Shown here: piece after piece, positions 38,922 through 63,883 of the stretch
How the letters are laid out: each line of letters opens with the position of its first letter
Numbering within the stretch: position 1 is the first letter of the stretch
Assembly: GCA_028280715.1 (NCBI GenBank)
Contig: JANQLG010000003.1
Location: 1-64,000 of the forward strand
Direction: 5' to 3'
Length of the DNA stretch: 64,000 nt
From: Spongiibacteraceae bacterium
GTDB taxonomy: Bacteria > Pseudomonadota > Gammaproteobacteria > Pseudomonadales > Dasaniaceae
The notes under the pieces: model-generated
Told to the model about the DNA's origin: nothing
The model's database searches: none
The model's input: the letters and a program-made list of their open reading frames with translations, nothing else
Program-made: the position numbers and the translations under genes

Positions 38922-38976
38922 AGCTATTTAGCTCGGATATATTGGTCTTAAGTCTTATTTTGCGGGAAATAAAATC

Positions 38977-39615
38977 ATGATAAAGATAGAAAAGCTATTC
39001 TGTTTAGTTCCGCAGAGTTTTTTACTGCTAGCGCTTTCTCTTATGTATGGGTGTGCATCCTCAGGTGGTGCGGTCATGTCGCCTGCCGATTTGCCGACAT
39101 ATTCTGAGCAGGAATACAAAATAGGCGTGGGCGATACAATAAGGGTGGATGTTTGGGGTAATGATAACCTTTCATTGGAGGTGCCTGTTCGTCCTGACGG
39201 AAAGATCTCAATGTCGTTGATTGGGGATGTGCTTGCCGCTGATAATAGCGCCGAAGAACTGGCAGAAAATATCAAAAACTTGTTGCTTAAATATATCAAG
39301 AACCCACAGGTCACAGTAATAGTAACCAACCCGAGTAGTTCTGATTTTCAGCAACGAATTCGTGTAACGGGTGCAGTTACAAACCCTCAATCAGTGCCCT
39401 ATAGAAAGGGTATGACGGTATTGGATTTAGTGCTTATGGCGGGTGGGCCTAATGAGTTTGCACTGCCGAATAATGCCAAGCTTTACCGAAAATCTGAAGG
39501 CCAGGTTAAAGTTTATCCAATTTATCTAGATGATATTTTGAGGGACGGTGAGCTTCAGACCAACTACATGTTAGTTCCTTCGGATATTGTCACAGTGCCT
39601 GAGAGATCTTTCTAA
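38977..39615 (+). CDS. Outer-membrane polysaccharide export lipoprotein
   Basis: 212 residues. A signal peptide with a lipobox (LSLMYGC, Cys near residue 26) is followed by a poly-export (Wza-like) domain, EYKIGVGDTIRVDVWGNDNL, and a SLBB-type domain, RIRVTGAVTNPQSVPYRKGM. Shorter than Wza, consistent with XrtA-system export proteins. It forms part of the exit pore for the polymer. 55 bases after the transferase gene, 21 before the chain-length gene. Confidence 0.92.
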   Translation: MIKIEKLFCLVPQSFLLLALSLMYGCASSGGAVMSPADLPTYSEQEYKIGVGDTIRVDVWGNDNLSLEVPVRPDGKISMSLIGDVLAADNSAEELAENIKNLLLKYIKNPQVTVIVTNPSSSDFQQRIRVTGAVTNPQSVPYRKGMTVLDLVLMAGGPNEFALPNNAKLYRKSEGQVKVYPIYLDDILRDGELQTNYMLVPSDIVTVPERSF

Positions 39616-39636
39616 CTTTCTGCTTGAGTTTTAGCT

Positions 39637-41160: not shown

Positions 41161-41898
41161 GTGAATAAGATGCAAAATAAAACAGAGTCAATAATTAAGG
41201 CCGTGGTTGATAAGGAGTCCTCTCATGTTATTTCAGACATGGCGGAGCCCATATACAAAACACATGAAGAATTAGCTGCACTTAAAATTATTTATCCTGG
41301 TATGCCTCAGCGGGAAGTACTTAATACTTTTCGAGACCTGAGAACCAGGTTGTTGGATCGCGCCCAAGGTAAAAATTTTATTTTATTGGTAAGTTCATTG
41401 TGTGAGGGCGGGGGCTCCAGCTTTGTTGCTATGAATCTTGCTGCTTCGTTTGCGTTAGATGAACATAAAACGGCTTTATATATCGATTGTAATGTCGATT
41501 CGCCATTTTCAGATGAGTTATTAAAAGATAGCTATGATCATGGTTTGATGGAATATTTAGAGTCTTCAGAGGTAGATGTAGAAGATATTATTTATTCGAC
41601 AGGTGTCCCTAGAGTGCGAACTATCCCTCCAGGGAAAAGTCATGAAATGTCTGTAGAAAGATTCGCTTCGGCAAAAATGACAAGATTGATTGAGTCAGTC
41701 AAGAAGCGTTATCGAGATAGATTTGTTGTTATTGATGTTCCTCCAGTTTCCGAATCTTCTGTGGCCAGAATTTTAGCTGGTGTTGCTGATATGGCTGTTG
41801 TTGTTGTACCTTTTGGGAAGGTAACTAAAAACCAGGTGCTTGCCGGTATCGATTCAGTAGGTGAGGAAAAATTCGCTGGTTTCGTTTTTAATAATTAA
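41161..41898 (+). CDS. XrtA-associated tyrosine-kinase-like ATPase with altered Walker A
   Basis: 245 residues, from a GTG right after the stop of the chain-length gene. BY-kinase/ParA-like fold: the region LLVSSLCEGGGSSFVAMNLA (about residues 75-94) takes the place of Walker A, the second motif is LYIDCNVDSPFSDELL and the Walker B-like strand is FVVIDVPPVSESS near residue 193. The Walker A Lys (G-x-G-K-S/T) is replaced by Ser86, and the C-terminus (EEKFAGFVFNN) has no tyrosine cluster. It probably regulates or docks to the chain-length protein rather than acting as a normal autokinase. Confidence 0.85.
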   Translation: MNKMQNKTESIIKAVVDKESSHVISDMAEPIYKTHEELAALKIIYPGMPQREVLNTFRDLRTRLLDRAQGKNFILLVSSLCEGGGSSFVAMNLAASFALDEHKTALYIDCNVDSPFSDELLKDSYDHGLMEYLESSEVDVEDIIYSTGVPRVRTIPPGKSHEMSVERFASAKMTRLIESVKKRYRDRFVVIDVPPVSESSVARILAGVADMAVVVVPFGKVTKNQVLAGIDSVGEEKFAGFVFNN

Positions 41899-46097: not shown

Positions 46098-47291
46098 ATG
46101 ACTGGATCATACGTATCAAATGAGTTTTCCGTTGATATATCGAATGAATTGGAACGCTTAACCAATCAAGTAGATTTGTTCTGGGATAAAGAATCAGTTC
46201 ATTATACTGATTTACAGTTTGGTTCGGGCAGTAAAATTTTAGAGTGTGGTAGTGGCAGCGGACATTATCTAACGAAGCTGGTAGATCTGTACCCTAAAGC
46301 AGAATTTTATTCCTTGGAAGCAGACGCGGCCTATGCGGAAGCCCAAAAAGTTCGTTTCCAAGAAGCGCCGTATAATAAAATAAATGTTGTCAATTGCACT
46401 ATCGAAGATTCACCGCTACCGGAAAATAATTTCGATTTAATTATTCTTCGTTTAGTTTTAGAGCATTTACCTAATGCCGATCAGGTTGTCGCCTCTTTGA
46501 GAAAAATGTTGAAAGTTGGTGGTCGGCTGTTTCTGATTGATAACGATTTTCACAATCATCTACTCACTTATCCGAACATCCCAGAATTAAGTACTTTGTA
46601 TGACGCTTATTGCCGCCAACGGGTTGATCAGGGTGGCAATCCTTATATTGGCCGAGAATTACCAATGCTAATGGAGCGAGAAGGCTTTGGTGCCATCGAT
46701 TTCGATACGATCACAGCACATAGTACGCTTACCGGCGATACAAAGTTTATTAGCTCAGAAAGTTCCGGGATTGGTCTAACTCTCGTGCAAGATGGTTATA
46801 TTGAAGCCGACACTTACGAGCGACTCAGTAAAAAATGGAGTGAGGTCTTATTTGCCGATAATCACGGTTATTATCGCAATCTGTATATTTGCAAAGGCAC
46901 TAAAGAGACCGAGGTATTTGAAAAACAAGCTAAATCAGTAAAAGCTAACCAAAGCGCAAGACCCAAAATGCAAATTAGTGGTGATGAAGACACACTGACT
47001 TTGCTAACAAATAAATGGAAAGAAGTATTAGACCGCGACGATATTGATGTTGACCATAATATCTTTGAAGCGGGTGGCTCATCTTTAATGATTTTGCATA
47101 TAAGAACTTTTATCAAAGAGGAAATGGGTCGAGATTATCCCTCAAGCTTTTTCTTTCAATACCCTACGATCCGCAAACTTAGTGAGGCAATTGATGCGCC
47201 AGACTCCGGAGCATCTACGGCAGCTGAGGCGAGTACTGAAAAGCCTTCCAGTAATTTACAACAATTGAAAGATAGATTTAAAAAGAAATAG
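46098..47291 (+). CDS. SAM methyltransferase fused to a carrier protein
   Basis: 397 residues. Residues about 25-210 form a class I methyltransferase: ILECGSGSGHYLTKLVDLYP (motif I, near 47), FYSLEADAAYAEAQK, and NNFDLIILRLVLEHLPNADQ (motif IV) with RKMLKVGGRLFLIDNDFHNH. After a linker, residues about 295-375 are a phosphopantetheine carrier domain with HNIFEAGGSSLMILHIRTFI, Ser329 (or 328) being the attachment site. Downstream is the PKS gene after 44 bases. It could methylate the starter or the growing chain held on its own carrier. Confidence 0.88.
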   Translation: MTGSYVSNEFSVDISNELERLTNQVDLFWDKESVHYTDLQFGSGSKILECGSGSGHYLTKLVDLYPKAEFYSLEADAAYAEAQKVRFQEAPYNKINVVNCTIEDSPLPENNFDLIILRLVLEHLPNADQVVASLRKMLKVGGRLFLIDNDFHNHLLTYPNIPELSTLYDAYCRQRVDQGGNPYIGRELPMLMEREGFGAIDFDTITAHSTLTGDTKFISSESSGIGLTLVQDGYIEADTYERLSKKWSEVLFADNHGYYRNLYICKGTKETEVFEKQAKSVKANQSARPKMQISGDEDTLTLLTNKWKEVLDRDDIDVDHNIFEAGGSSLMILHIRTFIKEEMGRDYPSSFFFQYPTIRKLSEAIDAPDSGASTAAEASTEKPSSNLQQLKDRFKKK

Positions 47292-47335
47292 AGTTCACAT
47301 CAATAGTAACGGATAAAACAGTTAGGTAGTTGAAG

Positions 47336-50300
47336 ATGGGCCAATTGATCGCAGTTATCGGCATGTCTTGCAAGGCGTCGGGAATAAACAACCTGGATGA
47401 TTACTGGCAAGTCATTTCGCAAGGCAAGAGTACACTAAAACGATACTCGAATGATGAACTGCGACAGAGTGGTATCGACGAGACCACTTTAAACGACACA
47501 AGTTATGTCCCCGTCGGTGGTGAACTAGAAGGTGCTGATGTATTTGATGCGGAGTTTTTTGGTATACCGCCAAAAGAAGCTCTCTACATGGATCCGCAGC
47601 ACCGAAAATTTCTTGAAGTCACTTATAGCGCCTTTGAAGATGCTGGCATTTCTCCAGAAAACTATGATGGCTTCGCTGGTGTTTTTGCTGGTTGCAGTCA
47701 AAACAATTACCGCTTGCAAAATATTGAAAAGACCCAGGCTGGCCGTCAATGGTCAGAATTTCAAAAACAAATAGCGAGTGATAAAGACTTTCTGGCGACT
47801 CAGGTTGCTTATAAGTTAGGTTTGCGTGGGCCGGCGCTCACAATCCAGTCGGCCTGTTCAACATCTCTTGTTGCCGTTGATACGGCCTGTAAATATTTAA
47901 ACTCCGGGCAGTGTGATATTGCTGTCGCTGGTGGTGCTTATATTAATGTACCGTTAAAACAGGGTTATCAAGCATTGGAGGGTGGAATTTTATCGGCAAC
48001 CGGAGAATGCCGTGCCTTCGATAGTGGCGCTAATGGAACCATTTTTTCGCCCGGTGTTGGTGTTGTTATTCTCAAGCCCTTAGAGCAAGCTATTGAAGAC
48101 GGTAACGACATTTACGGTGTCATTGAGAGCACGGCGACCAATAATGATGGAAATAAAAAAGTCAGCTATACCGCCCCTGGGTTTGATGGCCAGGCTGAAG
48201 TTATCACCATGGCGCAGGCGATGGCTGATATCGAGCCAGAAGATATTGCTTATGTAGAGGCTCATGGCACGGGTACAAAGTTGGGCGATCCGCTTGAGAT
48301 TCAAGCGCTAACAAACGCTTTTCGACTTGGCACTGACAAAAATCAATATTGTGTTATCGGTTCTGTGAAACCGAATATTGGTCACTGTGATGTTGCTGCC
48401 GGTGTGATGGGGTTAATCAAAATCTGTCTATGTTTAACTCATAAAGTTTTCCCCCCACAAATTAATTACAATACGATCAATCCCGAGATTGATATTAAAA
48501 ACTCGCCTTTTGTTATTAACACCAATAGCAAAGCGTGGCCCGATGCGAAAAACGGAAAACGAATTGCCGCCGTAAGCAGCTTTGGGGTTGGTGGCACAAA
48601 TGCACATGCTATCGTTTCTGAAGCTCCTACTACAAATACCAAGCAGGCAAGCCAATCTATAGCGCCCTTATTTTTCCCTATTTGCGGAGAAAGTGCTGAA
48701 TCGGTTGCTGCAAGTGCCAATGAACTTGGTCAGCGTTTGGGAAATAATGAAATTGATTTGGCGAGCGCAATCCAAGCTGCGAGTAGGAATGCAGATAATG
48801 CGAGTTATCGCGATTGTGTTGTTGCTTCAACCGTTGTGGATGCGAGTAAAAAACTTTTATCAATTAAAAGTGAGTCGGTTGCCAAGCTTGATGATGACGC
48901 TAAATCCTTGATCTTTATGTTTCCTGGTCAGGGTTCTCAGCATGTTGATATGGGCAGGGAGCTTTACGAAAAAGAAGTAGCTTTCCGTGAATCGATGGAT
49001 AAGTGCTTCGCGATTTTAGACGGTGTTTTGGAGTACGATCTTAAGCAAGTTTTATATCCCAGCGTTGAAGATCGTGATTCCGCTGCAGAGTTTCTTAAGC
49101 ATACCGAAGTTGCACAACCCGCTCTATTTTCTGTGAGTTATTCAACTGCTCAATTATTACAAGCCAAGGGTGTAAAACCCGACAAGATGGTTGGTCACAG
49201 TATCGGAGAATATGTTGCAGCATGCTTGTCGGGTGTATTTAGTCTAGAAGATGCACTAAAAATTGTCGCTAAGCGTGGACAGCTTATGCAGGCGATGGAT
49301 GCTGGATCAATGTTGGCGGTTATTGCCGATTTAGATACTGTTGAGTCCGAGTTGCCGAGTGATCTTTCAATTGCGGCTGTTAATAGCCCAAGTATTACTG
49401 TTGTCTCGGGCGAAACAGCAGCTATACAAAAATTTGAAGCGAGCTTAAGTGATCGATCTATTCGTACGGTTCCCTTGCATACTTCACACGCCTTTCATTC
49501 ACATATGATGGAGCCGATGTTGGAGCCATTTGTTCAGGCCTTTGAAAACGTGAAGTTGCAAGCGCCTGGAATTCCGTTTAGCTCCTGTGTCAGCGGCGAA
49601 TTGATTTCTGCGTCTCAATGCCAGTCTCCACAGTATTGGGCGGATCAGGTACGAAGCCCGGTGTTATTTAGTAAGTGCATTACAGATTTAATCGGTGCCG
49701 ATGACGCTATTTGTCTTGAGGTTGGTTCAAGTAATGCGCTCACTAGCGCTATGTCGGCACATGACTTTTCTAGCGATGTGTTGAGTTACAATACTTTGCC
49801 GCCTGCAGCGCGACCCGACAATGCCTTAGAGCAATTTACTAGCGTCTTAGGTAATTTGTGGAAACATACCCAATTGCTGGATTTGCAATATCTGATGAAC
49901 AACGATATTGAACTCCAAGTTGCTCATGCTGGACGTGCATTTAAGCAAGATCGGTATTGGATTGACTATTCAGCTGAACAAACTCAAGTTGCTATGGCGC
50001 AAATTCCTGCACAAGCCGATGCTAGTGCTGCGACTGGCGCATCCGTTCAAACACCGATGGAAGAAGAATTAAAAACGTTGTTACATGCGTTATCGGGAAT
50101 TCAATTTGATGACGGCAACCGTAATAGTGAATTCATCAGTTTAGGTTTCGAGTCATTACTTGCTGCAGAAGTCAGAGGAACGCTCAAATCTAAATTAGAA
50201 GTTGACGTAGAAATTCCTGAATTGATGTCAACCTATAACTCGTTCGAAAAACTCTTGGCATATTGTGTTTCCCAACGAGGAGAAACGGTTGCACATGAAG

Positions 50301-50641
50301 CGCCTGCAAATATACCTCAGCAAACGATTGTTCAGACCGTCAGTGGTGATCCAGGCACTATGGCTTTGGCCGATCAAGAGTCTTCGATTGCAGCATTGCG
50401 TAAAGAGATTCAAGAACAATCAAAACTCATTAAACAGCTAATTGAGCAGCGAGATGCGAGTGTTTCGTCAGTCGTTTCTTCCGGGAATGGTTCAGCAGTT
50501 GATAATCAAAGTGAAATTGCGGCAGATTTTATGCCTCGCCCTAATTCAGAAGCTCGTTTGGGAAAAGATCCAGAGGGCAATCCTAATTGGTATGTTCCTG
50601 ACCCGCAGAATCCCGGCCAATACCGCATCGTCAGCCAATAA
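47336..50641 (+). CDS. Type I polyketide synthase, KS-AT-ACP
   Basis: 1101 residues from ATG 47336 (a TTG two codons earlier is possible). KS domain about 5-430 with nucleophile Cys174 in QSACSTSLVAVDTAC, His310 in VEAHGTGTKLGDP and His350 in KPNIGHCDVAAG. AT domain about 530-830 with FMFPGQGSQHVDMG, Ser622 in GHSIGEY and HAFH at 718-721, the pattern of malonyl-CoA specificity. ACP near 905-975 with Ser940 in LGFESLLAAEV. The C-terminal tail ends in GNPNWYVPDPQNPGQYRIV, a conserved ending in such KS-AT-ACP proteins. No KR, DH, ER or TE domain. Confidence 0.95.
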   Translation: MGQLIAVIGMSCKASGINNLDDYWQVISQGKSTLKRYSNDELRQSGIDETTLNDTSYVPVGGELEGADVFDAEFFGIPPKEALYMDPQHRKFLEVTYSAFEDAGISPENYDGFAGVFAGCSQNNYRLQNIEKTQAGRQWSEFQKQIASDKDFLATQVAYKLGLRGPALTIQSACSTSLVAVDTACKYLNSGQCDIAVAGGAYINVPLKQGYQALEGGILSATGECRAFDSGANGTIFSPGVGVVILKPLEQAIEDGNDIYGVIESTATNNDGNKKVSYTAPGFDGQAEVITMAQAMADIEPEDIAYVEAHGTGTKLGDPLEIQALTNAFRLGTDKNQYCVIGSVKPNIGHCDVAAGVMGLIKICLCLTHKVFPPQINYNTINPEIDIKNSPFVINTNSKAWPDAKNGKRIAAVSSFGVGGTNAHAIVSEAPTTNTKQASQSIAPLFFPICGESAESVAASANELGQRLGNNEIDLASAIQAASRNADNASYRDCVVASTVVDASKKLLSIKSESVAKLDDDAKSLIFMFPGQGSQHVDMGRELYEKEVAFRESMDKCFAILDGVLEYDLKQVLYPSVEDRDSAAEFLKHTEVAQPALFSVSYSTAQLLQAKGVKPDKMVGHSIGEYVAACLSGVFSLEDALKIVAKRGQLMQAMDAGSMLAVIADLDTVESELPSDLSIAAVNSPSITVVSGETAAIQKFEASLSDRSIRTVPLHTSHAFHSHMMEPMLEPFVQAFENVKLQAPGIPFSSCVSGELISASQCQSPQYWADQVRSPVLFSKCITDLIGADDAICLEVGSSNALTSAMSAHDFSSDVLSYNTLPPAARPDNALEQFTSVLGNLWKHTQLLDLQYLMNNDIELQVAHAGRAFKQDRYWIDYSAEQTQVAMAQIPAQADASAATGASVQTPMEEELKTLLHALSGIQFDDGNRNSEFISLGFESLLAAEVRGTLKSKLEVDVEIPELMSTYNSFEKLLAYCVSQRGETVAHEAPANIPQQTIVQTVSGDPGTMALADQESSIAALRKEIQEQSKLIKQLIEQRDASVSSVVSSGNGSAVDNQSEIAADFMPRPNSEARLGKDPEGNPNWYVPDPQNPGQYRIVSQ

Positions 50642-50662
50642 TTAATTGAAGAGAAGTAATAG

Positions 50663-53600
50663 ATGGAAACTGTTGATATCAACTACGATCCTTTTGAGCA
50701 CGGAGAAATTATTTTTGTTGCCGGCACCACACCGCAACAAAAAGAAATCTGGTTGGCATCGCAATTTAGCGAAGAAGCGTCCCTGGCCTATAACCAAGGT
50801 ATTGTATTTGAGCTGCAAGGATCTGTTCAGGAGGGTATTCTTAATCAGGCTATCACGGCATTTTGTGAAAAGTTTCCATTAACAAAATCATCTTTTAGTC
50901 CCGATGGGGATTATGTTTGCATTAATAAAGAATTTAATATTGATGTTGCCATTGATGATCAGTCTGCGCTGGATGATCAAGCATTTCAACGTTATCTAGA
51001 AGAAGTCTATAAGAAAGAAGCCAATACATCATTTGATCTGACCTTTGGTCCTTTGTTGCGAGCCCAGCTCCTAAAATCGAGCGAGAATAAAAATTACCTG
51101 TTAATTGTCTCTCACCATATTGTCTGCGATGGCGTTTCACTGGGTATTATCGCTAGTGAGATTCCTCTTATATATCGCTCTTTGCTGTCCGGGGATTTGG
51201 CAGAAAATGGGGAGAGTGGAGCGATTAATGGCGCAGCGATAAAAAATCTTCAAGTCGATTTTAGTAGTGCCAATATTCAGGCGAGCAAAGACTATTGGGC
51301 TAAAGTATATCAGGAATTACCCTCTCCCTATGAATTGCCATCGCCACCGGGGTTTTCTCGTGACTCGAGAAGGACCTTTAATTCCCAACGGTTTAGATTT
51401 GATTTGCCAGCAACCGAAATCGAGAATTTAACTCAACTTTCCAGTCAACTGGGATGCACTTTTCCGCTGCTAACCTATGGTATTTTTACAGCGTTAATTT
51501 ATCGTTTAACCAATCACGATGATCTTGTGATCGGTTTGCCCGTATCTACTCGACATCTGTCCAATTCGCAGCATCAGTTTGCTCATTTTGTAAATGTATT
51601 ACCTTTTCGACACAAGGTGGACGGAGCAAAAAGCTTTACAGATTTTATTAAATCCTTGTCAGAGAATATTTATGAAGGTTCGCAATATGCGTCCTTATCT
51701 CTCAATGAATTAATAAAACACGTAAAAGTACCCTACGATTCCACTCGTGTGCCTTTGGAGCCGATTACTTTCAACACGAATCAAAGCGACAATGCGGTAG
51801 ATTTTGGTGATATAAGCGGTTATTACGATTACGTACCTCGAGCCTTCGAGACCTTTGAAATTGCAGTTAATTTTATTAGCAGAAAAAAAGAAGCGTTTTT
51901 GCTTGTCGATTTTAATACCAGTCTATTTAGCGAAAGCTTTATCCATCAGCTCTGTGATTCTTATCTTGCTTTAGCCCAATCTGCTGCCAAAAGCCCAGCC
52001 GAGTCGTTGTCGAAACTTTCGATACTTAGTACTCGAGAGCAGGAAAATATTTCCAAGTTATGCTTTGGTCGTGAACCTGCTATACATATCGAAACTCTGC
52101 ATCAAGTGTTTGAGTCGCAAGCTGAACAGTCACCGAGTGCAATATCAACGGTTTTTGAAGGCACCAAGTTAACCTATGAGGCTTTAAATCTAGCATCGAA
52201 TCAAATCGCCCATTTGTTGATTAACGAGCACAATGTACAACAAGGCCAGTTAATTGGTATTTGTGTGGAGCGTTCAGAAAAAATGTTGGCAGTGTTGTTG
52301 GGGATGCTTAAGGCAGGAGCTGCTTATTTACCGCTTGATCCTGAATACCCGAAGGATCGGATTGCTTATATTCTAGAAGATGCGCAAGTCAGTTTATTGC
52401 TCACTGAAACGAGAGTTGATTCGGTCGAAGAGTATCAGGGTGATGTCATCAATATTGATGAAGTGTGGGGCCAACTCAGCGAACAGCCAGATCATAACCC
52501 AGAATTATCGGTTAACGGCACAGATCCTTGTTACGTTATTTATACCTCGGGCTCTACGGGTAAACCTAAAGGAGTGCAGGTCGCACATAAAAATGTAGTC
52601 AACTTTTTGCAGAGTATGGCTAATGAGCCTGGCTTGAATGAACAGGATAAGTTATTAGCGGTTACGACCTTATCCTTTGATATTGCAGTACTTGAGTTAT
52701 ATTTGCCACTGACTGTAGGTGCACAAACGCATATTGCTAGTCGTGATACTAGTATGGATGGTGAAACGTTATTGAGTTATCTCGCCGAGCACGAGATCAC
52801 CATGCTGCAAGCGACCCCTGCGACTTGGCGAATGATGCTACAGTCCGGTTGGAATGGTTCACCAAATTTGAAAGGCTTGATTGGCGGTGAAGCGCTACCA
52901 AAAGAACTTTTGCCTGATTTGCTGCCGAGAATAAAGGAACTTTGGAATATGTATGGGCCAACCGAAACTACGGTATGGTCTACCTGCCAAAAAATTGTAG
53001 ATCCAGATGCGCCGATTTATATTGGTCGTCCGATTGACAATACCCAAGTGTATATCGTTGATCCTAATAACGCTCTGCTGCCAATAGAGGTGCCTGGTGA
53101 GTTATGCATTGGTGGTGAGGGGGTTACTCTGGGGTATTTAGGTAAGCCTGAGTTAACTGCCGATCGGTTCATTGAATTTAACACTGCTAATGGAACCGAG
53201 CGAGTTTACAAAACAGGTGATTTGGTACGTATGCTTGCTACCGGAGAACTGGAATATCTAAACCGGCTAGATAACCAAGTGAAAATTCGCGGGTTTCGAA
53301 TTGAGCTTGGTGAAATCGAAGCGAATTTGTCGAAGATTGATGGTATTGATCAATGTGTGGTTATTGCGCATAAGTTTGGCCCTTCGGATCATCGCTTAGT
53401 TGCTTATGTGAAAATGGAAGAGGGAATCAATCTCACCACAACTGAGATGCGAAAGGGCTTAAAACGTGAGTTGCCCGATTACATGATGCCGCAATTCTTT
53501 ATTGAAATAGATACCGTGCCGTTAACACCTAGTGGCAAAGTTGATAGAAAATCTCTACCCAGCCCTACCGCAGATTTGGCCGGCCAACGTGAGCGACATC

Positions 53601-53917
53601 CACCAACAACGAAGACCGAAATCGAATTGGCAGAAATTTGGGCTGCTTCGTTGAAAATAGATCAGATTGATGTAGATGATTTCTTCTTTGATATTGGTGG
53701 TCACTCGCTATTGGCAGCTGAGGTTGTTGGAAAAATTAAACGCAAGTTTGGCATAAAAATCGTTTTTGCTGATCTGCTTATGATTTCTTTCAATCAGATC
53801 GCAGCAAAAATTGATGCAGCACGAGGGCCTGACAAGCAAGAAACCGTGGCAGCTATTACCCGCCAGGCAAACAAGAAAGAAAAAATACCATTCCTTAAGA
53901 AACTCTTTGGTGTTTAA
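50663..53917 (+). CDS. Nonribosomal peptide synthetase module, C-A-PCP, probably glycine-specific
   Basis: 1084 residues. Condensation domain about 20-450 with catalytic HHIVCDG at 151-157. Adenylation domain about 480-970: YVIYTSGSTGKPKGV near 627, LSFDIAVLELYLPL, NMYGPTETTVWS, and YKTGDLVRM and the K of PLTPSGKVDRKSLP. Reading the ten pocket residues by eye gives D-I-L-Q-I-G-M-V-W-K, close to the glycine code DILQLGLIWK as I remember it. PCP about 985-1050 with FDIGGHSLLAAEV, Ser1015. No thioesterase; the chain must leave by another route. It starts 21 bases after the PKS. Confidence 0.95.
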   Translation: METVDINYDPFEHGEIIFVAGTTPQQKEIWLASQFSEEASLAYNQGIVFELQGSVQEGILNQAITAFCEKFPLTKSSFSPDGDYVCINKEFNIDVAIDDQSALDDQAFQRYLEEVYKKEANTSFDLTFGPLLRAQLLKSSENKNYLLIVSHHIVCDGVSLGIIASEIPLIYRSLLSGDLAENGESGAINGAAIKNLQVDFSSANIQASKDYWAKVYQELPSPYELPSPPGFSRDSRRTFNSQRFRFDLPATEIENLTQLSSQLGCTFPLLTYGIFTALIYRLTNHDDLVIGLPVSTRHLSNSQHQFAHFVNVLPFRHKVDGAKSFTDFIKSLSENIYEGSQYASLSLNELIKHVKVPYDSTRVPLEPITFNTNQSDNAVDFGDISGYYDYVPRAFETFEIAVNFISRKKEAFLLVDFNTSLFSESFIHQLCDSYLALAQSAAKSPAESLSKLSILSTREQENISKLCFGREPAIHIETLHQVFESQAEQSPSAISTVFEGTKLTYEALNLASNQIAHLLINEHNVQQGQLIGICVERSEKMLAVLLGMLKAGAAYLPLDPEYPKDRIAYILEDAQVSLLLTETRVDSVEEYQGDVINIDEVWGQLSEQPDHNPELSVNGTDPCYVIYTSGSTGKPKGVQVAHKNVVNFLQSMANEPGLNEQDKLLAVTTLSFDIAVLELYLPLTVGAQTHIASRDTSMDGETLLSYLAEHEITMLQATPATWRMMLQSGWNGSPNLKGLIGGEALPKELLPDLLPRIKELWNMYGPTETTVWSTCQKIVDPDAPIYIGRPIDNTQVYIVDPNNALLPIEVPGELCIGGEGVTLGYLGKPELTADRFIEFNTANGTERVYKTGDLVRMLATGELEYLNRLDNQVKIRGFRIELGEIEANLSKIDGIDQCVVIAHKFGPSDHRLVAYVKMEEGINLTTTEMRKGLKRELPDYMMPQFFIEIDTVPLTPSGKVDRKSLPSPTADLAGQRERHPPTTKTEIELAEIWAASLKIDQIDVDDFFFDIGGHSLLAAEVVGKIKRKFGIKIVFADLLMISFNQIAAKIDAARGPDKQETVAAITRQANKKEKIPFLKKLFGV

Positions 53918-53985: not shown

Positions 53986-54756
53986 ATGGAATCATTGTTT
54001 TTTGGTAGCTCCGATCAACGCGTACTGGGTATTTACCACTCCGCAGATTTTTCTAAGGATCGTGGAGAGGGGGTAGTGCTTTGTTACCCCTTTGGGCAAG
54101 AATATATGCGTGCCCACAGGGCTTACCGGCAGCTCGCTTCTGGTTTAAGTAAGCTGGGTTATCATGTGCTCAGATTTGATTATCGAGGTACAGGTGACTC
54201 CTATGGTGACTTGGATAATGCATTGCCAAGCATGTGGTTAGATGATGTACGAACTGCAGTAGAAGAGTTGGCAGATATTTCTGGTTGTCGAAAGATATCG
54301 CTTCTCGGTTTGCGATTGGGTGCGTTACTTGCTCAGCAAGTTGCCTTTAGTGAAACAAAAATAAGTCGCTTAGTGCTCTGGGACCCCATTGTCAGTGGGC
54401 AGGCATTTATTGATGAAATTAAAGATGAAATAAGTTTATCAGGTGAATCGAATTCGAAATTCATTGATCAAAATAATACTATTCATTTTAACGGTTTTTC
54501 GATTTCGTCAAGTTTTCAAAATGAAGTGCCGAGTCTTAGTGTTAACTGTGCGGGCACTGGGCCACAGAAGGCACTGCTTATTATATCCCATGAGACACCA
54601 GATTTTTCAGATCTGAAGGCAAGCTTGTCAACTAATAATCACAACTTAACCTTTTTACACGAGCCAGCACCGCACGATTGGAATTATGTGGATCACGTTG
54701 GCGGTATTTTATTGCCATCGAATTTATTGAATAAAATATTAGAGTGGTTCAAATGA
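53986..54756 (+). CDS. Exosortase A-associated hydrolase 2, probable non-catalytic
   Basis: 256 residues of alpha/beta-hydrolase type: VVLCYPFGQEYMRAHRAYRQ, LRFDYRGTGDSYGDLDNALP, DDVRTAVEELADISGCRKIS and a C-terminal His in EPAPHDWNYVDHVGG. The nucleophile elbow should be G-x-S-x-G but reads GLRLGA, so the Ser is Arg/Leu here. This layout is that of the XrtA-system 'hydrolase 2' (TIGR03101-like) as I remember it. It may be a scaffold or use other residues. It shares ATGA with the next gene. Confidence 0.82.
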   Translation: MESLFFGSSDQRVLGIYHSADFSKDRGEGVVLCYPFGQEYMRAHRAYRQLASGLSKLGYHVLRFDYRGTGDSYGDLDNALPSMWLDDVRTAVEELADISGCRKISLLGLRLGALLAQQVAFSETKISRLVLWDPIVSGQAFIDEIKDEISLSGESNSKFIDQNNTIHFNGFSISSSFQNEVPSLSVNCAGTGPQKALLIISHETPDFSDLKASLSTNNHNLTFLHEPAPHDWNYVDHVGGILLPSNLLNKILEWFK

Positions 54757-55610
54757 TTCACGAAAATACCGTTAGAATAGGCCAGCCCATCCCTTTGCAT
54801 GGTGTCGTGAGTTTACCTGTTAACAAAGACAAAAAGGTCGGGGTTATATTGCTTAACTCAGGCGTTATGCATCGCGTTGGTGCTTGCCGTATGACAGTAA
54901 AAATTGCGCGTCGTATTGCCGAAGAGCTTGGATTTTTTTGTATACGTTTTGATTTTTCAGGTCTCGGTGATAGTGAACCAAGACGTGCTGGTGATATGGA
55001 TTTCGAGTCCATCCCGGTTAAGGAGGTTCAGGAGGTTATGGACTTTTGTACCCAACAATACGGTATCGAGCGATTTGTTCTTTATGGATTGTGTTCGGGT
55101 GCCCATATTTCTTGTAAAGTGGGTGAGATTGATGACAGAGTCGCTGGCATTATTCAAATAGATGGTTACAGCTATCCAACTTCCAAGACTCATTTTCTTT
55201 ATTACTTGCATCGCGTGACAACACTCAGTGTTTGGGTAAATCGTATTAAAAAAATGCTAGGTGTGAAAACAGATGCTGTGGGTAATCAGCGAGTATTAAC
55301 ACTTGAAAGTGATGATGAAAATTTTGAAATTCCACTCTTTCCTGATCTTCCAGAGAAGCCTGTGGTCATTGATCGCCTTTCTGCGATTGTGAAAAAAAAT
55401 GTTAGCTTGCACTGTGTGTTTACGGGAAGGGAGCCATACTTTTATTACGAAGGCCAGTATCGAGACTGCTTTAGTGATATTGACTTCGGTGATCTCTTAA
55501 GTTTGGATTATTATCCCGATGCATCTCATATTTTTACTCAGCCTGAATATCAACAGCAGCTTATTGAAAGTATTGTTAATTATCTGAAAACAAGCGAAGT
55601 GACTGCTTAA
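54753..55610 (+). CDS. Exosortase A-associated hydrolase 1
   Basis: 285 residues from the ATG at 54753, which overlaps the preceding stop (ATGA); a GTG nine bases upstream is rejected for that reason. Alpha/beta hydrolase: GVILLNSGVMHRVGACRMTV, FDFSGLGDSEPRRAGDMDFE, nucleophile elbow YGLCSGAHISCK (Ser in place), and the His in YYPDASHIFTQPEYQQQL near the end. XrtA-system 'hydrolase 1' (TIGR03100-like). Located behind a synthetase without a thioesterase, it is a candidate for releasing the chain from the PCP. Confidence 0.85.
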   Translation: MIHENTVRIGQPIPLHGVVSLPVNKDKKVGVILLNSGVMHRVGACRMTVKIARRIAEELGFFCIRFDFSGLGDSEPRRAGDMDFESIPVKEVQEVMDFCTQQYGIERFVLYGLCSGAHISCKVGEIDDRVAGIIQIDGYSYPTSKTHFLYYLHRVTTLSVWVNRIKKMLGVKTDAVGNQRVLTLESDDENFEIPLFPDLPEKPVVIDRLSAIVKKNVSLHCVFTGREPYFYYEGQYRDCFSDIDFGDLLSLDYYPDASHIFTQPEYQQQLIESIVNYLKTSEVTA

Positions 55611-57807: not shown

Positions 57808-59289
57808 TTATTGATTAAATTGCATAGAGTTTCTGTATAGCTCGGCAACCATGGGGATTAATTGCTGGCTTAACTCGGTTTCGGTATCACAGCTCAGGCC
57901 ACAATCTATCGCAATTGCAACTAGCGCGACGTCTGATCTGCCCTTGAAAAAGTTTTTCAGCTGTAACCATTTCGCCTTAACGCCACTGGTTGTAGGTATA
58001 TCGCCGATTTGATACCAGTAGGTCACGAGTTTTTGATCAATATTATTTTTTGATTTGAGTATGCTTTGGTAATAGGGGACCTGATTTACTGCTTTAAGTT
58101 GTTGATTTCTTTCGGTCCAGTTTTCATCACTTATCTTATTTTCATAGTAAATAAGCTCTTTGCCCTGCTCTTGATTGATATAGCTATAAAAATAAAGGTA
58201 GGCACGCTGATGATTTTTAGTGATGAGTAAGGTTTTCTTAAAGTCAGCGCTTTGAAAATCTGGATTCCATTCTGCATTGTTTACAACTTGTAATTCCCAT
58301 TCATCGGCTTGCGAAGGAAATTTTGCAGTAGAAAGCTCTGCTTGACCTGCACTTAACCATAGAGCTAGTAGTGGCCCGCAAAAGGCGAGCAGTAGTGCGA
58401 GAGTTGCAATGCTTGGCTCACCATTAATTGGTTTAACTGAACTTTTCTCGGTATCGCTTTTGATAGTTTCAGGAGGTTCGTCTCTGAGCTTTATAGAGAT
58501 ATAAAACAGTAGAACCATTGCTATGGCAAATAAAATCCAGCCATGCCAAAAATGGCTTGTCATTAATGAACTCTGCATGTTTGTGACATGCCCTATTACC
58601 ACCAGCGAGAATACTCTTATCCAATTGCTGAGTAGACCTATGCCAGTTGCAATGAGGATGAGCAGGACCTTGCGAGACAGGCGATGGTAATTTAGTTCGG
58701 CTTGAATTGCGCCTAGTGAGACCGCAATGAGAAAAAAGTTCAAGCCGCTGCAGCTATTGGCGACGTGAATAAGTCCTGCTGGTAATTGTACATAGTTGTC
58801 ATAGATATGTGCTGGAATATCTAGTATAGATAGGCCTAGAGAGCACACCACGACAGTCATAAATTGCAGTATGCCAACAATATAACTCCATACAGGTATG
58901 GCCAAAATAACAAGTCCGGCTGGGAATATGGCTTGTTTTGCGCCTTCAATACCAAAAAGCATGGCGAGGAAAAAGAAACAAACTGCTAGAATGGCTAATT
59001 GCTGAATTAATTGAATTTGTACAATATCAGCAAATAACCAAAACAAACTCGATATTGCCAAAGGAAGGGTAAATAACTGCCAAAGGCGATAATTGTTACT
59101 GAGTGATTGTTGGGTACGAGCTTCATAGAATAGATATAGGCTAACTGCGACGAGTAAATAGCCGTGGGAGTAATTAGCGCTCACTTGTACCCATTGGTCA
59201 TGAAGTGAGTTTAAAGTGGCCCAGTAGAAATAGAACAACCCCGCGACAAAAAGGCCAATGGTCGTTAAATCAAGGGTTGTTTTTTTCAT
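57808..59289 (-). CDS. xrtA: Exosortase A fused to an EpsI (DUF3485) domain
   Basis: 493 residues from the ATG at 59289 (a GTG six codons earlier is possible). The first ~290 residues have about eight membrane helices, with the exosortase triad: Cys180 in HVANSCSGLNFFLIA, Arg225 in NWIRVFSLVVIG and His249 in SHFWHGWILF. Residues about 310-493 are a periplasmic EpsI/DUF3485 domain (AEWNPDF..., YFYSYINQEQGKELIYYENK, ...VALVAIAIDCG). Exosortases cleave and pass on PEP-CTERM proteins or support EPS export. No PEP-CTERM substrate is seen in this window. Confidence 0.93.
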   Translation of the reverse strand: MKKTTLDLTTIGLFVAGLFYFYWATLNSLHDQWVQVSANYSHGYLLVAVSLYLFYEARTQQSLSNNYRLWQLFTLPLAISSLFWLFADIVQIQLIQQLAILAVCFFFLAMLFGIEGAKQAIFPAGLVILAIPVWSYIVGILQFMTVVVCSLGLSILDIPAHIYDNYVQLPAGLIHVANSCSGLNFFLIAVSLGAIQAELNYHRLSRKVLLILIATGIGLLSNWIRVFSLVVIGHVTNMQSSLMTSHFWHGWILFAIAMVLLFYISIKLRDEPPETIKSDTEKSSVKPINGEPSIATLALLLAFCGPLLALWLSAGQAELSTAKFPSQADEWELQVVNNAEWNPDFQSADFKKTLLITKNHQRAYLYFYSYINQEQGKELIYYENKISDENWTERNQQLKAVNQVPYYQSILKSKNNIDQKLVTYWYQIGDIPTTSGVKAKWLQLKNFFKGRSDVALVAIAIDCGLSCDTETELSQQLIPMVAELYRNSMQFNQ

Positions 59290-59381
59290 CAAAAATGTAC
59301 CTAACACCGCAGTTTACCAGCGCTGCTAAGTCTATGATATTTTGAGGTGATTGAGAAATCACGGAGAAAGAGGACCAAATT

Positions 59382-60254
59382 TTGCGTAATGCGATAACGA
59401 TAGATGTTGAGGACTACTTCCAGGTTTCAGCGTTTGCTGAGGTGGTAGAGACCAGTAAATGGGATAGCTTTCCTTTAAGAGTTGAAACCAATACCCATAA
59501 TATTTTGAATTTATTCGATGAGGTAGATGTTAAAGGAACTTTCTTTGTGCTTGGCTGGGTAGCTGAGCGCTTACCCGGTTTGGTGACAGAAATTGCCAGC
59601 CGCGGGCATGAAATCGCAAGTCACGGATATAGCCACCAGTTGATTTACAATCAAAAGCCGGAAGTTTTTAAGCAGGAGACATTTCGGTCCAAACAGTTGC
59701 TTGAAGACATTATTCAACAGCCAGTACGAGGTTATCGTGCCGCCAGCTATTCGATTACTGCGCAGTCCAAGTGGGCACTAGATACGCTGATAGAAGCCGG
59801 CTTTGTATACGATTCAAGTATCTTTCCTATAAAGCATGATAGATACGGAATGCCTGGGGCTCCGGATTACCCGCATCGTCTGGTTAGAGAGGAGTCTGGT
59901 TCTATTATTGAATTCCCGCTTTCTTCATTGAGCCTTGGTGCTTATCGTTTGCCTGTTGCCGGGGGAGGGTATTTTCGCTTGTATCCCTATTTCTTGTCTC
60001 GGTTTTTTCTTAACTGTGTCCTTAAGCAAACGAAAAGACCATTTATTTTCTACTTGCACCCCTGGGAGATTGACCCGGGTCAGCCGCGTATCGAAGCGAG
60101 TCGTTTATCGAAGTTTCGGCATTACAATAATCTTGAAAGTTGTGAAGACCGTTTGCGAAAGTTACTCAAAGATTTTGAATTTACTACGGTTGATGATGTA
60201 TTGCACACCATGAGCATGTTTGAAGAAGGCCGTCCTGAATCGGTGATCTACTAA
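59382..60254 (+). CDS. XrtA-system polysaccharide deacetylase
   Basis: 290 residues. The only available start is a TTG at 59382, with AGAGGACC before it; the motif AITIDVEDYFQVSAFAEVV begins at once, so a later ATG would cut it off. NodB-fold motifs: TIDVEDYF (metal Asp), RGHEIASHGYSHQLIYNQ (metal His), VRGYRAASYSITAQS and LHPWEIDP. It is of the PEP-CTERM-associated type (TIGR03006-like), acting on N-acetyl groups of the polymer. Its stop is one base before the FemAB gene, so the two are coupled. Confidence 0.92.
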   Translation: MRNAITIDVEDYFQVSAFAEVVETSKWDSFPLRVETNTHNILNLFDEVDVKGTFFVLGWVAERLPGLVTEIASRGHEIASHGYSHQLIYNQKPEVFKQETFRSKQLLEDIIQQPVRGYRAASYSITAQSKWALDTLIEAGFVYDSSIFPIKHDRYGMPGAPDYPHRLVREESGSIIEFPLSSLSLGAYRLPVAGGGYFRLYPYFLSRFFLNCVLKQTKRPFIFYLHPWEIDPGQPRIEASRLSKFRHYNNLESCEDRLRKLLKDFEFTTVDDVLHTMSMFEEGRPESVIY

Positions 60255-60255
60255 G

Positions 60256-61689
60256 ATGTTATCGAAAAAACAAATCCTGGCTGATCCGATAAAAGCGTTG
60301 GAACAAATATCACTGCCGCTAAGTGATGAGCAGCAACTCTCCTTAGATACCGACTATGGAAAGCGCAATGAACTGGTAGCAAAGAAAACACAGTTACAGC
60401 AAGAAAAAGGTAAAAATTCACGTTTAATTGGTGAAAAGAAAAAAGTGGGTGAAAGTGCAGACGAGCTCATTGCAATGATGAAAGGTATCAGTCAAGAAAT
60501 TGGTGCTATCGATACACAATTAAAGGAAATTGAAACATCAATATTGCATGTATTTGCAAGCCAGCCACAGAGTTCTAAGCAGCAAGATACAAAAGAGTCT
60601 GAGCAAAATGAATGGAAGCCTATAACAAGATATGCATGGGATGTTGCAATAAATGCGGAAAATCTATCGATTATTGCATTTGATCATGAGCATGCTAAGG
60701 CGTGGGATAACTATGTAAATGCGCACCCTGCTGCAAGTAACTATCATTTACTGCGCTGGAAGTCAGTCGTTGAAAAGAGTTTTGGTCATCGATGCCATTA
60801 TTTAATCGCATATGAGCGAGATCAAGTAGTCGGTGTATTGCCTCTGGTGCAATTGCAAAGTAAGTTGTTTGGCAATTTTATGGTCTCCCAGGCTTTTTTT
60901 AACTACGGTGGCGCGCTGGGTGATAGTGTTGAAGTTGAAAAAAAGCTGATGGAAAGTGGCGCCGAGTTAGCTCGTACTCTAGGTTGTTCACATGTTGAAT
61001 ATCGTGATGATTTTGCACGGGAGGGATTACCGGCAAGAACCGATAAAGTTGCAATGATGCTTGCATTGCCAACGGAAGCTGATCATTTGTGGGATTCGAT
61101 CGGAAGTAAGCTGCGGGCTCAAGTTCGGCGCCCTCAAAAGGAACAGTGCGAAACAAAAATAGGCGGCATCGAATTACTTGATGATTATTACCATGTGTTT
61201 TCAATTAATATGCGTGATTTAGGTACGCCGGTTTACAGCAAACAGTTTTTTAGCAATATTCTGGAGCTATTTCCGAAGCAATCGCGATTGGTTGTGGTTT
61301 ACCATCAGGGGCAGGCGGTTGGTACGGCCTTCTTGTTAGGTTACCGAGATACATTAGAAATCCCTTGGGCGTCAACCTTGCGCAAAGTCAATCATTTGAG
61401 CGTTAATATGCTTTTGTATTGGCGGGTGCTGGAATTTGCTATCAGCAAGGGTTATCGCTGGTTTGACTTTGGCCGCTCGACCGCCGATGCAGGGACTTAT
61501 CGATTTAAACAGCAGTGGGGAGCAAAGCCACGACAACTTTATTGGCACTATTGGTTGGCCGATGGGGGTGAATTACCCCAGATTAATCCTAATAACCCAA
61601 AATACAAATTGCTCATTGCTGTGTGGCAGCGATTGCCCGTATGGTTTACAAAAATTATCGGTCCCTTTGTTGTTCGAAACTTGCCGTAA
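60256..61689 (+). CDS. FemAB-like transferase with an N-terminal seryl-tRNA-synthetase-type arm
   Basis: 477 residues. Residues about 1-112 read like the tRNA-binding domain of SerRS from the first Met: MLSKKQILADPIKALEQI, then RNELVAKKTQLQQEKGKNSR, IGEKKKVGESADELIAMMKG and QEIGAIDTQLKEIETSIL, an antiparallel coiled coil with the LQ-E-x-N/K-S-x-x-IG and K-x-GE turn of SerRS. After a Gln/Ser-rich linker, residues about 135-455 are a FemAB/GNAT transferase (NYHLLRWKSVVEKSFGHRCH, GRSTADAGTYRFKQQWGAKP), close to the XrtA FemAB type (TIGR03019-like). No SerRS catalytic core. The arm suggests use of seryl-tRNA as donor. Confidence 0.85.
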   Translation: MLSKKQILADPIKALEQISLPLSDEQQLSLDTDYGKRNELVAKKTQLQQEKGKNSRLIGEKKKVGESADELIAMMKGISQEIGAIDTQLKEIETSILHVFASQPQSSKQQDTKESEQNEWKPITRYAWDVAINAENLSIIAFDHEHAKAWDNYVNAHPAASNYHLLRWKSVVEKSFGHRCHYLIAYERDQVVGVLPLVQLQSKLFGNFMVSQAFFNYGGALGDSVEVEKKLMESGAELARTLGCSHVEYRDDFAREGLPARTDKVAMMLALPTEADHLWDSIGSKLRAQVRRPQKEQCETKIGGIELLDDYYHVFSINMRDLGTPVYSKQFFSNILELFPKQSRLVVVYHQGQAVGTAFLLGYRDTLEIPWASTLRKVNHLSVNMLLYWRVLEFAISKGYRWFDFGRSTADAGTYRFKQQWGAKPRQLYWHYWLADGGELPQINPNNPKYKLLIAVWQRLPVWFTKIIGPFVVRNLP

Positions 61690-61702: not shown

Positions 61703-62737
61703 CTAGAGCCAGGTAGATAATCGCGATTGAAACTTTCTTGGAGAGTTGCTCCGATCTTCGTGAATACCGATTCGACTTAGCTGATAAGGATTGAATTCTG
61801 AGCTGCTGTTAATGCCCGTTTGAGTAGTAACGGCTGCTTTATATATTTCAGTGATTCTCTTTAATGCCGCTTCACAAAGATCTCCATTCGGATAGCAAAA
61901 TAAACTGATTTCTCTGCTTAGCTCAGCTTCTAGCTTCTTTTTACTTTCGCTTAACTCGGCTTCGAGTACTTCGAGAGGTAAATCCTCGCGCAGTCGAAAG
62001 TGATTACAAGTGTGCGAACCAACAGTGACCAGACCACTATCGGCCATCTCGCGTAATTGCTCCCAGTTCATCAGTGCGGGTTTGGTTTGTTGTTGTGTAA
62101 ATAAGTTTTGCGCGCTATCTAGCCAATCGCTTAATTGGTTATCCGGGAAATGTTTTAATTCATTGATTATTCGTGCTAAGGATTCACGGTTAGAAGGGGG
62201 CTCACCCGATATTAAATAAGGGCGAAGCCAATCCATTTCCATCAGATCATTTGGGTCATTCTGTAATAAATGTGATAGTTGATTGGGCCAGAATTGTCTG
62301 TTTGTTCCGATCATGTCGCTAACAGCGAATAATGTTGCTCGGATATTTTCCTGCTTAAGAATCGGGAACGCGTACTCGTAGTTATCGAGCCATCCATCGT
62401 CAAAGGTAATGGCACAGGCGCGTGATGGTAATTCACTGTTGCTCGTTTTTGCCTCTAGCCACTCGTTCAAATCTACGATAGTGAACAGACGTTTTAGTTG
62501 TTGTAGCTGTAACTTAAAGGTTTCCGGCTCAACAATCATTCCGGGTTCTTCAAGCGCATATCGTGGATCAGTTTTTGGTAGAATGCGGTGATACATTAAT
62601 ATCCACAGCTGTGGTTCCTGACTGCCCATGCGGTGGGGGCCACAGCGGGCGGCAAACCATTCCGCTGGTATTCTAATAACAGATTTGGCAGCATTGCGAA
62701 AAGTGCGCGAAGCAGACGTTGCCGACATAGGGGACAT
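61703..62737 (-). CDS. Second polysaccharide deacetylase
   Basis: About 344 residues if started at the ATG at 62737; other in-frame ATGs at 62800 and 62728 are possible and none has a clear ribosome binding site. NodB fold: LWILMYHRILPKTDPRYALE, metal Asp pair in ACAITFDDGWLDNYEYAFPI and His in GLVTVGSHTCNHFRLREDLP, and SLFCYPNGDLCEAALKRITE. Convergent with the FemAB gene, divergent from the glycosyltransferase with only 12 bases between the chosen starts, so its promoter would lie inside the neighbouring gene. Confidence 0.88.
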   Translation of the reverse strand: MSPMSATSASRTFRNAAKSVIRIPAEWFAARCGPHRMGSQEPQLWILMYHRILPKTDPRYALEEPGMIVEPETFKLQLQQLKRLFTIVDLNEWLEAKTSNSELPSRACAITFDDGWLDNYEYAFPILKQENIRATLFAVSDMIGTNRQFWPNQLSHLLQNDPNDLMEMDWLRPYLISGEPPSNRESLARIINELKHFPDNQLSDWLDSAQNLFTQQQTKPALMNWEQLREMADSGLVTVGSHTCNHFRLREDLPLEVLEAELSESKKKLEAELSREISLFCYPNGDLCEAALKRITEIYKAAVTTQTGINSSSEFNPYQLSRIGIHEDRSNSPRKFQSRLSTWL

Positions 62738-62749
62738 AGGGAGTACCGA

Positions 62750-63883
62750 GTGCTTAACCGGAAAAGTACACATTCTAATCCGAGCAAAACCATATTGCAT
62801 CTTATAGACACGACAGGGCCAGGTGGAGCTGAAACGGTGTTTATTGAACTGGCCGATAAACTCCGTGATCTTGGCTATCGTTCAATCGTGGTTATACATG
62901 GCCCAGGTTGGGTGCAAGAGCAATTAGTTGCGCGTGGTTTAGATCCTATCGTTTTGTCTGCCAGCGGGAGTTTCGCATTAGGGTTTTTACGGCAGCTGAT
63001 TGCCATTGTTCGTGCTGAAAAGGTAAGTCTTATTCAATCGCACTTACTAGGATCAAATGTTTACGCCTCAATAGTTGGTTTGATTACTGGTATTCCTGTT
63101 GTTGCTACTTACCATGGCATGGTAGATGTGCGGCCTAACGAACGCTTTCGCAGAATTAAAAATCTCGCGATGAAATTTGGTATAAAGCGCTATGTGGCGG
63201 TAAGCCGGCGATTGATGGAAAACATTGAGCAACAAAATTTGTTGGATGTAAAAAAAACTGAGGTCATATACAACGGTATTAATCTTAACCGTTATCAAGT
63301 ATCTGAGGACACGACGCTCCGGCAATCACTAAAGCTTGGCGAAGATGCCATTATTGTTGGAAGCTTGGGAAATGTACGTCCGGCCAAAGCTTATGATGTT
63401 CTCATTCGAGCTGCTGCCGGGTTGCTAGACCATCATAAACATATCCACTTTGTTGTAGCTGGTCATCAAAAGGAGCCTTTAATGGGTGAACTTCAAGCAT
63501 TAATGGATGACTTGGGTGTTTCAGCCAATATTCACTTCATCGGCTTTCAACAGGATTGCGCCGCATTTTTGGGACAGCTTGATTATTTTTTATTGTCTTC
63601 CTCTTCAGAGGGTTTTTCGATTTCCACCATTGAAGCGATGGCTACAGGGCTGCCAGTATTAGTGACTCGTTGTGGTGGTCCGGAAGAAATTATTAGCGCT
63701 GAAAACCAGGGAATAATGGTAGAGCCTAATCAGCCATCTGAAATTACTAAAGCGCTTGAAGCCCTAATTGATAATCAAGAGTATGCTAAAGAATTGGGTC
63801 AAAATGGCAAAAAAAGAGCGCAAGAGGCCTTTGGTGTTGAAGCGATGTTAAATGGGTATGATGAAATTTATAAGCAACTCTAA
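62750..63883 (+). CDS. Glycosyltransferase, GT4 family
   Basis: 377 residues from the GTG at 62750, which has GGGAG six bases upstream; an upstream in-frame extension of 39 codons is basic, unlike the family and antisense to the deacetylase, and is rejected. GT-B fold: HLIDTTGPGGAETVFIELAD (the sugar-acceptor loop) at the N-terminus, AVSRRLMENIEQQNLL, IVGSLGNVRPAKAYDVLIRA, and the UDP-sugar-binding SEGFSISTIEAMATGLPVLV with the E-x7-E motif. It adds one sugar during repeat-unit assembly; the sugar is not known. Confidence 0.92.
   Translation: MLNRKSTHSNPSKTILHLIDTTGPGGAETVFIELADKLRDLGYRSIVVIHGPGWVQEQLVARGLDPIVLSASGSFALGFLRQLIAIVRAEKVSLIQSHLLGSNVYASIVGLITGIPVVATYHGMVDVRPNERFRRIKNLAMKFGIKRYVAVSRRLMENIEQQNLLDVKKTEVIYNGINLNRYQVSEDTTLRQSLKLGEDAIIVGSLGNVRPAKAYDVLIRAAAGLLDHHKHIHFVVAGHQKEPLMGELQALMDDLGVSANIHFIGFQQDCAAFLGQLDYFLLSSSSEGFSISTIEAMATGLPVLVTRCGGPEEIISAENQGIMVEPNQPSEITKALEALIDNQEYAKELGQNGKKRAQEAFGVEAMLNGYDEIYKQL

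Follow-up and report, generated by a model that had tools for sequence, protein, structure and literature searches.

A FemAB-family transferase with an N-terminal arm of the seryl-tRNA synthetase type, encoded in an XrtA-type exopolysaccharide locus and predicted to use seryl-tRNA

The 64,000-nucleotide stretch of DNA analyzed here (the window) codes for a FemAB-family transferase of 477 amino acids (P0001; positions 60256 to 61689, + strand), in which an N-terminal arm of the seryl-tRNA synthetase (SerRS) type is joined through a linker to an XrtA-type FemAB core. The initial annotation had read the open reading frame in this way, and matches to PF02403 and TIGR03019, both above their cut-offs, confirm it. 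The arm is almost certainly homologous to that of SerRS, and it probably binds tRNA. We think it reasonably likely that the protein is a cytoplasmic Ser-tRNA-dependent aminoacyltransferase of an XrtA-type exopolysaccharide locus, with the arm recruiting the tRNA; tRNA binding, the choice of tRNA(Ser), serine, and the acceptor are all predicted. FemAB enzymes associated with XrtA are widespread among environmental bacteria (88 of the 369 genomes sampled from the class have one), and no function for them was found in the open literature. Because one branch carries the tRNA-recognition arm of a synthetase, the donor type and the amino acid can both be predicted, which opens the function of the family to direct test.

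The protein begins with a SerRS N-terminal-like domain (residues 1 to 104; 60256 to 60567, + strand; assigned with AlphaFold2 and Foldseek), for which AlphaFold2 predicts cap helices at residues 4 to 9 and 11 to 18 and hairpin helices at residues 24 to 63 and 69 to 101. The arm tip (residues 55 to 71, SRLIGEKKKVGESADEL; 60418 to 60468, + strand) was delimited by column comparison of the fused proteins with SerRS. A flexible linker follows (residues ~105 to 137; 60568 to 60666, + strand), with pLDDT values of 49 to 67 over residues 101 to 130, and then a double-GNAT, FemABX-type transferase core (residues 138 to 477; 60667 to 61686, + strand), recognized by TIGR03019 and by its structural Z scores to FemX, FemA, and Sbb17. 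The TIGR03019 (pepcterm_femAB) match covers residues 149 to 477 at 387.8 bits, against an equivalog cut-off of 260.35 bits for a model that spans only 330 residues.

A search of the N-terminus against the SerRS family, named beforehand as a check in the initial annotation, returned PF02403 (Seryl_tRNA_N) on residues 34 to 99 at 35.2 bits (E 1.5e-8; second score, 36.4 bits), above the curated Pfam cut-off of 28.2 bits, and the only proteins genome-wide with this domain are the femAB product and SerRS itself. The SerRS domain had been drawn over residues ~1 to 112, and of this span the hairpin (residues ~34 to 100) is significant by sequence, but the first 33 residues alone are not. These 33 residues have a SerRS-like length and two short helices and are in part superposable on SerRS, although the PF02403 match begins only at residue 34 and the best-match superposition at residue 11.

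The similarity to SerRS extends across the family. Fifty distinct armed proteins were aligned, drawn from whole-genome searches and from the best 80 of 571 relatives confirmed in the genome collection; 47 of the 50 match PF02403 individually at E <= 0.1, and other coiled-coil families are matched by no more than two each. Against an HMM made from ~30 SerRS N-termini of Gammaproteobacteria, the 50 relatives average 23.4 bits over their N-termini, whereas 1000 heptad-preserving shuffles reach at most 11.0 bits and reversed sequences 8.0 bits. Among 87 genomes of the order, five proteins other than SerRS pass the PF02403 cut-off, and all are FemABs of the same family: the window protein, its homologues in G029 and G038, and the FemABs of G442 and G426. 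Six weaker non-SerRS hits (E <= 0.001) comprise four armed FemABs and two other helical proteins; the G004 and G055 proteins of this survey belong to alignment A2. The family profile run against all PDB sequences ranks SerRS first (E 2e-6) and FemX second (6.5e-6), with the best unrelated coiled coil at E 0.012. Profile-profile comparison of the arm with SerRS gives a probability of 98% across 111 columns, the E-value being that of a single comparison, and the arm is ~20 to 25% identical to solved SerRS. Chance coiled-coil similarity is ruled out by the shuffles, the rank of SerRS among PDB sequences, and the genome-wide count of non-SerRS hits. Recent copying of the arm from the SerRS of the same genome (L160) is also unsupported, given the different tip of that SerRS and these low identities to solved SerRS.

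The tip aligns without gaps to the conserved SerRS tip, S-K-x-I-G-x-A-K-x-x-G-E-D, and the pattern common to the fused proteins and SerRS is Ser, basic, x, Ile, Gly, x, Ala, basic, x, x, Gly. Acidic residues follow the last Gly in both groups, and then a Leu at +16 (column comparison). Basic residues occupy motif positions +1 and +7 in ~90% of the fused proteins, and likewise in SerRS. The Arg-Asn that precedes the tip and is conserved in SerRS is absent as a conserved feature from the fused proteins, and the mean net charge of the distal arm is +3.0 in the fused proteins versus +0.26 in SerRS. The arm of the window protein itself is not striking in this respect, its net charge being -2 over the whole arm and +2 at the tip. 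We note that the tip motif is degraded or drifted in several members (L009, L012, and L013).

The predicted structures agree with this picture. With the alignment of 50 sequences as input, AlphaFold2 reaches a mean pLDDT of 92.9 (~94 to 97 in the hairpin, ~90 to 97 in the N-terminal domain), and the full model consists of two short helices, the hairpin, a disordered linker, and the double-GNAT core; a single-sequence model of residues 1 to 122 reproduces the hairpin. The antiparallel two-helix arm anticipated in the initial annotation is therefore present in the prediction, with both hairpin helices in SerRS register. With a model of the arm on its own as query, Foldseek gave SerRS for all of its 13 best PDB matches, with modest E-values (best, 2e-3), and VIA placed residues 26 to 100 on residues 26 to 100 of Pseudomonas aeruginosa SerRS at 0.8 Å and 23% identity, with Z of ~10. 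Generic hairpins come close behind SerRS in VIA (Snf7, Z 10.0), so that the fold by itself would be no proof of homology; taken together with register and sequence, it makes the SerRS homology of the arm very likely. The VIA search with the full model returned core matches only and is thus uninformative on the arm.

For the core, the VIA matches include FemX (Z 27.9), FemA (25.2), Sbb17 (25.1), and MprF (19.9). The 11 best are FemX, FemA, and the aminoacyl-tRNA-dependent peptide synthases Sbb17/Sba18 (Z 24.8 to 27.9), and CoA-binding tandem GNATs rank below MprF, with Z at most 18.7. In Weissella viridescens FemX, Phe304-Lys305 are catalytic and roles are described for Lys36, Arg211, and Tyr215 (PMC4964394). 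Phe417-Lys418 of the window protein (61504 to 61509, + strand) align with the catalytic pair in the profile alignment; Lys418 is 100% conserved, and Phe417 96 to 100%, across 50 armed proteins, 37 bare sisters, and 35 classic members. The same alignment places Tyr327 and Phe331 opposite FemX Arg211 and Tyr215, which contact UDP-MurNAc-pentapeptide. With the Phe-Lys pair kept and Arg211/Tyr215 replaced, the donor side looks FemX-like and the acceptor side looks altered, as far as alignment can tell, and because the peptidoglycan-precursor contacts of FemX are replaced we do not class the window protein as a peptidoglycan enzyme. Core residues 368 to 374 read E-x-P-W-A-S-T in the armed proteins and their bare sisters and L-x-Y-Y-G-G-G in classic TIGR03019 proteins; at the sequence level, EIPWAST-type versus LPYYGGG-type strands are a clean split into two subfamilies.

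The initial annotation had suggested seeking the same fusion in other loci, and ~50 relatives of this build were gathered, mostly from Gammaproteobacteria. The sources are Marinobacter, Granulosicoccaceae, Cellvibrionales, Spongiibacteraceae-labelled MAGs, a Thiotrichaceae MAG, other Gammaproteobacteria, and one betaproteobacterial contig. The last is an armed FemAB on a betaproteobacterial-labelled contig within the gammaproteobacterial set (L066, Acidovorax sp. SRB_14), reflecting transfer or contamination, and the contigs L042 (Pelagibacterium sp. MAG SP179) and L053 (a Verrucomicrobiaceae MAG), whose proteins are Marinobacter-like or gammaproteobacterial despite these labels, are probably misbinned. 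In the class at large, the frames of most members are ~340 to 400 residues long; the few long frames among 30 loci fetched from the class have an upstream extension without arm-like sequence.

In a 100-row core tree, built by a quick method from loci chosen by their likeness to armed members, the label "arm" needs at least 4 changes, versus 33.5 by shuffling. Unarmed classic TIGR03019 proteins fall outside, and in the other clade every one of the earliest branches carries the arm, a pattern consistent with a single gain followed by several losses. The distribution fits an early gain of the arm with several losses and a shortening in Marinobacter, a history for which the root and the sampling permit other readings. 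In Marinobacter proteins the hairpin is reduced to its distal part with the tip kept, and the Marinobacter loci L041, L054, L057, L076, and L090, among others, have the distal half with the tip motif, a natural truncation series. Core relatives up to ~57% identical have no arm, so the reaction does not need the arm in every lineage.

The femAB gene is part of an XrtA/PEP-CTERM exopolysaccharide locus, in which TIGR03006, TIGR03007, TIGR03013, and TIGR03027 are matched above their cut-offs and an exosortase is encoded. Its ATG sits 1 base past the stop codon of the gene directly upstream, which codes for an XrtA-system polysaccharide deacetylase (59382 to 60254, + strand; TIGR03006, 406.8 bits, cut-off 276.2). 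The exosortase (57808 to 59307, - strand) has an EpsI-type C-terminal domain, with TIGR02602 and TIGR02914 above cut-off; its best model is XrtA at 192.8 bits, below the cut-off of 208, and the second best is XrtW. An XrtA-system sugar transferase, export protein, chain-length protein, and tyrosine autokinase are encoded at 37518 to 41898 (+ strand; TIGR03013, TIGR03027, and TIGR03007 above cut-off, TIGR03018 below). Beyond femAB are a second polysaccharide deacetylase with a PgaB-like N-terminal part, below cut-off (61703 to 62800, - strand), and a GT4-type glycosyltransferase (62633 to 63883, + strand; from the ORF list and a profile scan), whose listed start is probably too far upstream because the ORF overlaps the divergent deacetylase. 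No dedicated tRNA gene was found in the window or in the loci of 43 relatives.

Other genes of the locus are also of note. Two alpha/beta hydrolases (53986 to 55610) resemble exosortase-A-associated hydrolases 2 and 1, well below the cut-offs. From the translations, a methyltransferase-carrier protein, a one-module PKS (KS-AT-ACP), and a C-A-T NRPS are encoded within the XrtA locus at 46098 to 53917, and a PhyH-type oxygenase and an SDR neighbor the PKS/NRPS genes.

The deacetylase upstream of femAB starts at its catalytic motif (LRNAITIDVEDYFQ) with no room for a signal peptide, as do many of its homologues, and it is therefore probably cytoplasmic, the compartment of aminoacyl-tRNA. A cytoplasmic deacetylase beside a FemAB suggests a pair in which an amine is freed on a precursor sugar and then aminoacylated. 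Such a deacetylase gene lies on the same strand and less than 700 bases from femAB in 20 armed and 17 unarmed relatives, the pairing being found with unarmed members too, and a deacetylase and FemAB pair has been tabulated for Rubrivivax (PMC3684757).

In the mechanism we propose, the arm would recruit a long-variable-arm tRNA, most likely Ser-tRNA(Ser), by inserting into the space that separates T arm and variable arm, in the manner of SerRS; tRNA(Ser) is selected by the SerRS stalk helix, which occupies the cleft that the T arm forms with the long variable arm (PMC11479938; PMC9427863). The flexible linker of ~30 residues would allow the CCA end of the charged tRNA to reach the FemX-like double-GNAT core, which would carry out the amino acid transfer. 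The amino acids used by FemX-like GNAT enzymes come from tRNA, and one such enzyme, VlmA, obtains its serine from Ser-tRNA(Ser) (PMC12945691). The co-operonic cytoplasmic deacetylase would free the amine on a lipid- or nucleotide-linked amino-sugar precursor, and the amino acid, most likely serine, would go to an amine, most likely on that deacetylated precursor.

We hold serine as the donor amino acid with fair confidence; the deacetylated amino-sugar precursor, read from gene order alone, is a tentative choice of acceptor. The literature on N-seryl amino sugars yielded nothing useful. A protein acceptor, which the initial annotation had also entertained, found no support, and a glycan precursor fits the locus better. 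Whether a captured SerRS arm makes the exopolysaccharide FemAB a dedicated Ser-tRNA(Ser) aminoacyltransferase, with surface polysaccharides carrying serine from the translation pool, is evenly balanced in our judgment. If true, an extra-translational enzyme has gained tRNA specificity by carrying a domain of the cognate synthetase, and a branch of bacterial surface polysaccharides bears serine drawn from that pool.

The evidence from the core for aminoacyl-tRNA stands independent of serine, and the arm may instead be a general or shifted grip, holding another tRNA with a long variable arm (Leu or Tyr), or the tRNA elbow with no choice among tRNAs, with an amino acid other than serine. The arm of human mitochondrial SerRS has been rewired to read the T loop and not the variable arm (PMC9427863), and the drift of the tip motif in some family members also points this way. 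Across most of the armed family, however, the tip residues and the register are SerRS-like. Bacterial SerRS arms serve tRNA(Ser), and we regard a grip for another tRNA as rather unlikely.

Decidedly unlikely, in our view, is that the hairpin, as a coiled coil derived from or resembling that of SerRS, now serves protein contacts, such as oligomerization or docking to the EPS machinery, with the core using aminoacyl-tRNA or acyl-CoA without it. Conserved basic residues occupy the SerRS positions, generic coiled coils fall far below SerRS by sequence, and the shortened arms keep the tip, although the loss or shortening of the arm in several lineages and the almost equal superposition of generic hairpins would suit a contact role. 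It is also conceivable, if highly improbable, that the core is an acyl-CoA-dependent N-acyltransferase and the similarity of the arm irrelevant to the donor. GNAT folds mostly use acyl-CoA, and CoA-binding tandem GNATs also match this core (Z 18.7), but the 11 closest structures are aminoacyl-tRNA enzymes separated by a clear gap, and the catalytic Phe-Lys of FemX is kept.

The reading that we prefer, a Ser-tRNA-dependent aminoacyltransferase with a tRNA-recruiting arm, can be set against several known systems. A search of the open literature did not find the combination of FemAB and SerRS arm. The claim of the initial annotation that no enzyme of this build is described holds in that literature, but the annotation does not mention Staphylococcus aureus FemA, whose internal helical arm has been compared with that of SerRS (PMC4964394); Fem enzymes with a SerRS-like arm are thus not wholly new. 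FemA has a FemABX core and a helical arm, as in the window protein, but its arm is inserted in the second GNAT domain (residues 246 to 307), whereas that of the window protein is N-terminal (residues 24 to 101), separate, and SerRS-homologous by sequence. W. viridescens FemX shares the double-GNAT core (Z 27.9) and the catalytic Phe-Lys; it has no arm, and its acceptor appears to differ, with Arg211/Tyr215 replaced by Tyr327/Phe331. VlmA of valanimycin biosynthesis, compared here by description only, is likewise a FemX-like GNAT using Ser-tRNA(Ser) outside the ribosome; it differs in belonging to an actinomycete small-molecule pathway, and the part of the source consulted does not mention a SerRS arm (PMC12945691). 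The arm of bacterial SerRS (PF02403) has the same hairpin, length, register, and tip motif, but in the window protein the arm is linked flexibly to a transferase and not to a class II synthetase core, and the Arg-Asn before the tip is unconserved. NCBIfam TIGR03019 describes the same core, matched far above cut-off, in the same type of locus beside an XrtA deacetylase, and to the classic members of that family the window subgroup adds the N-terminal SerRS-type arm and an EIPWAST strand in place of LPYYGGG.
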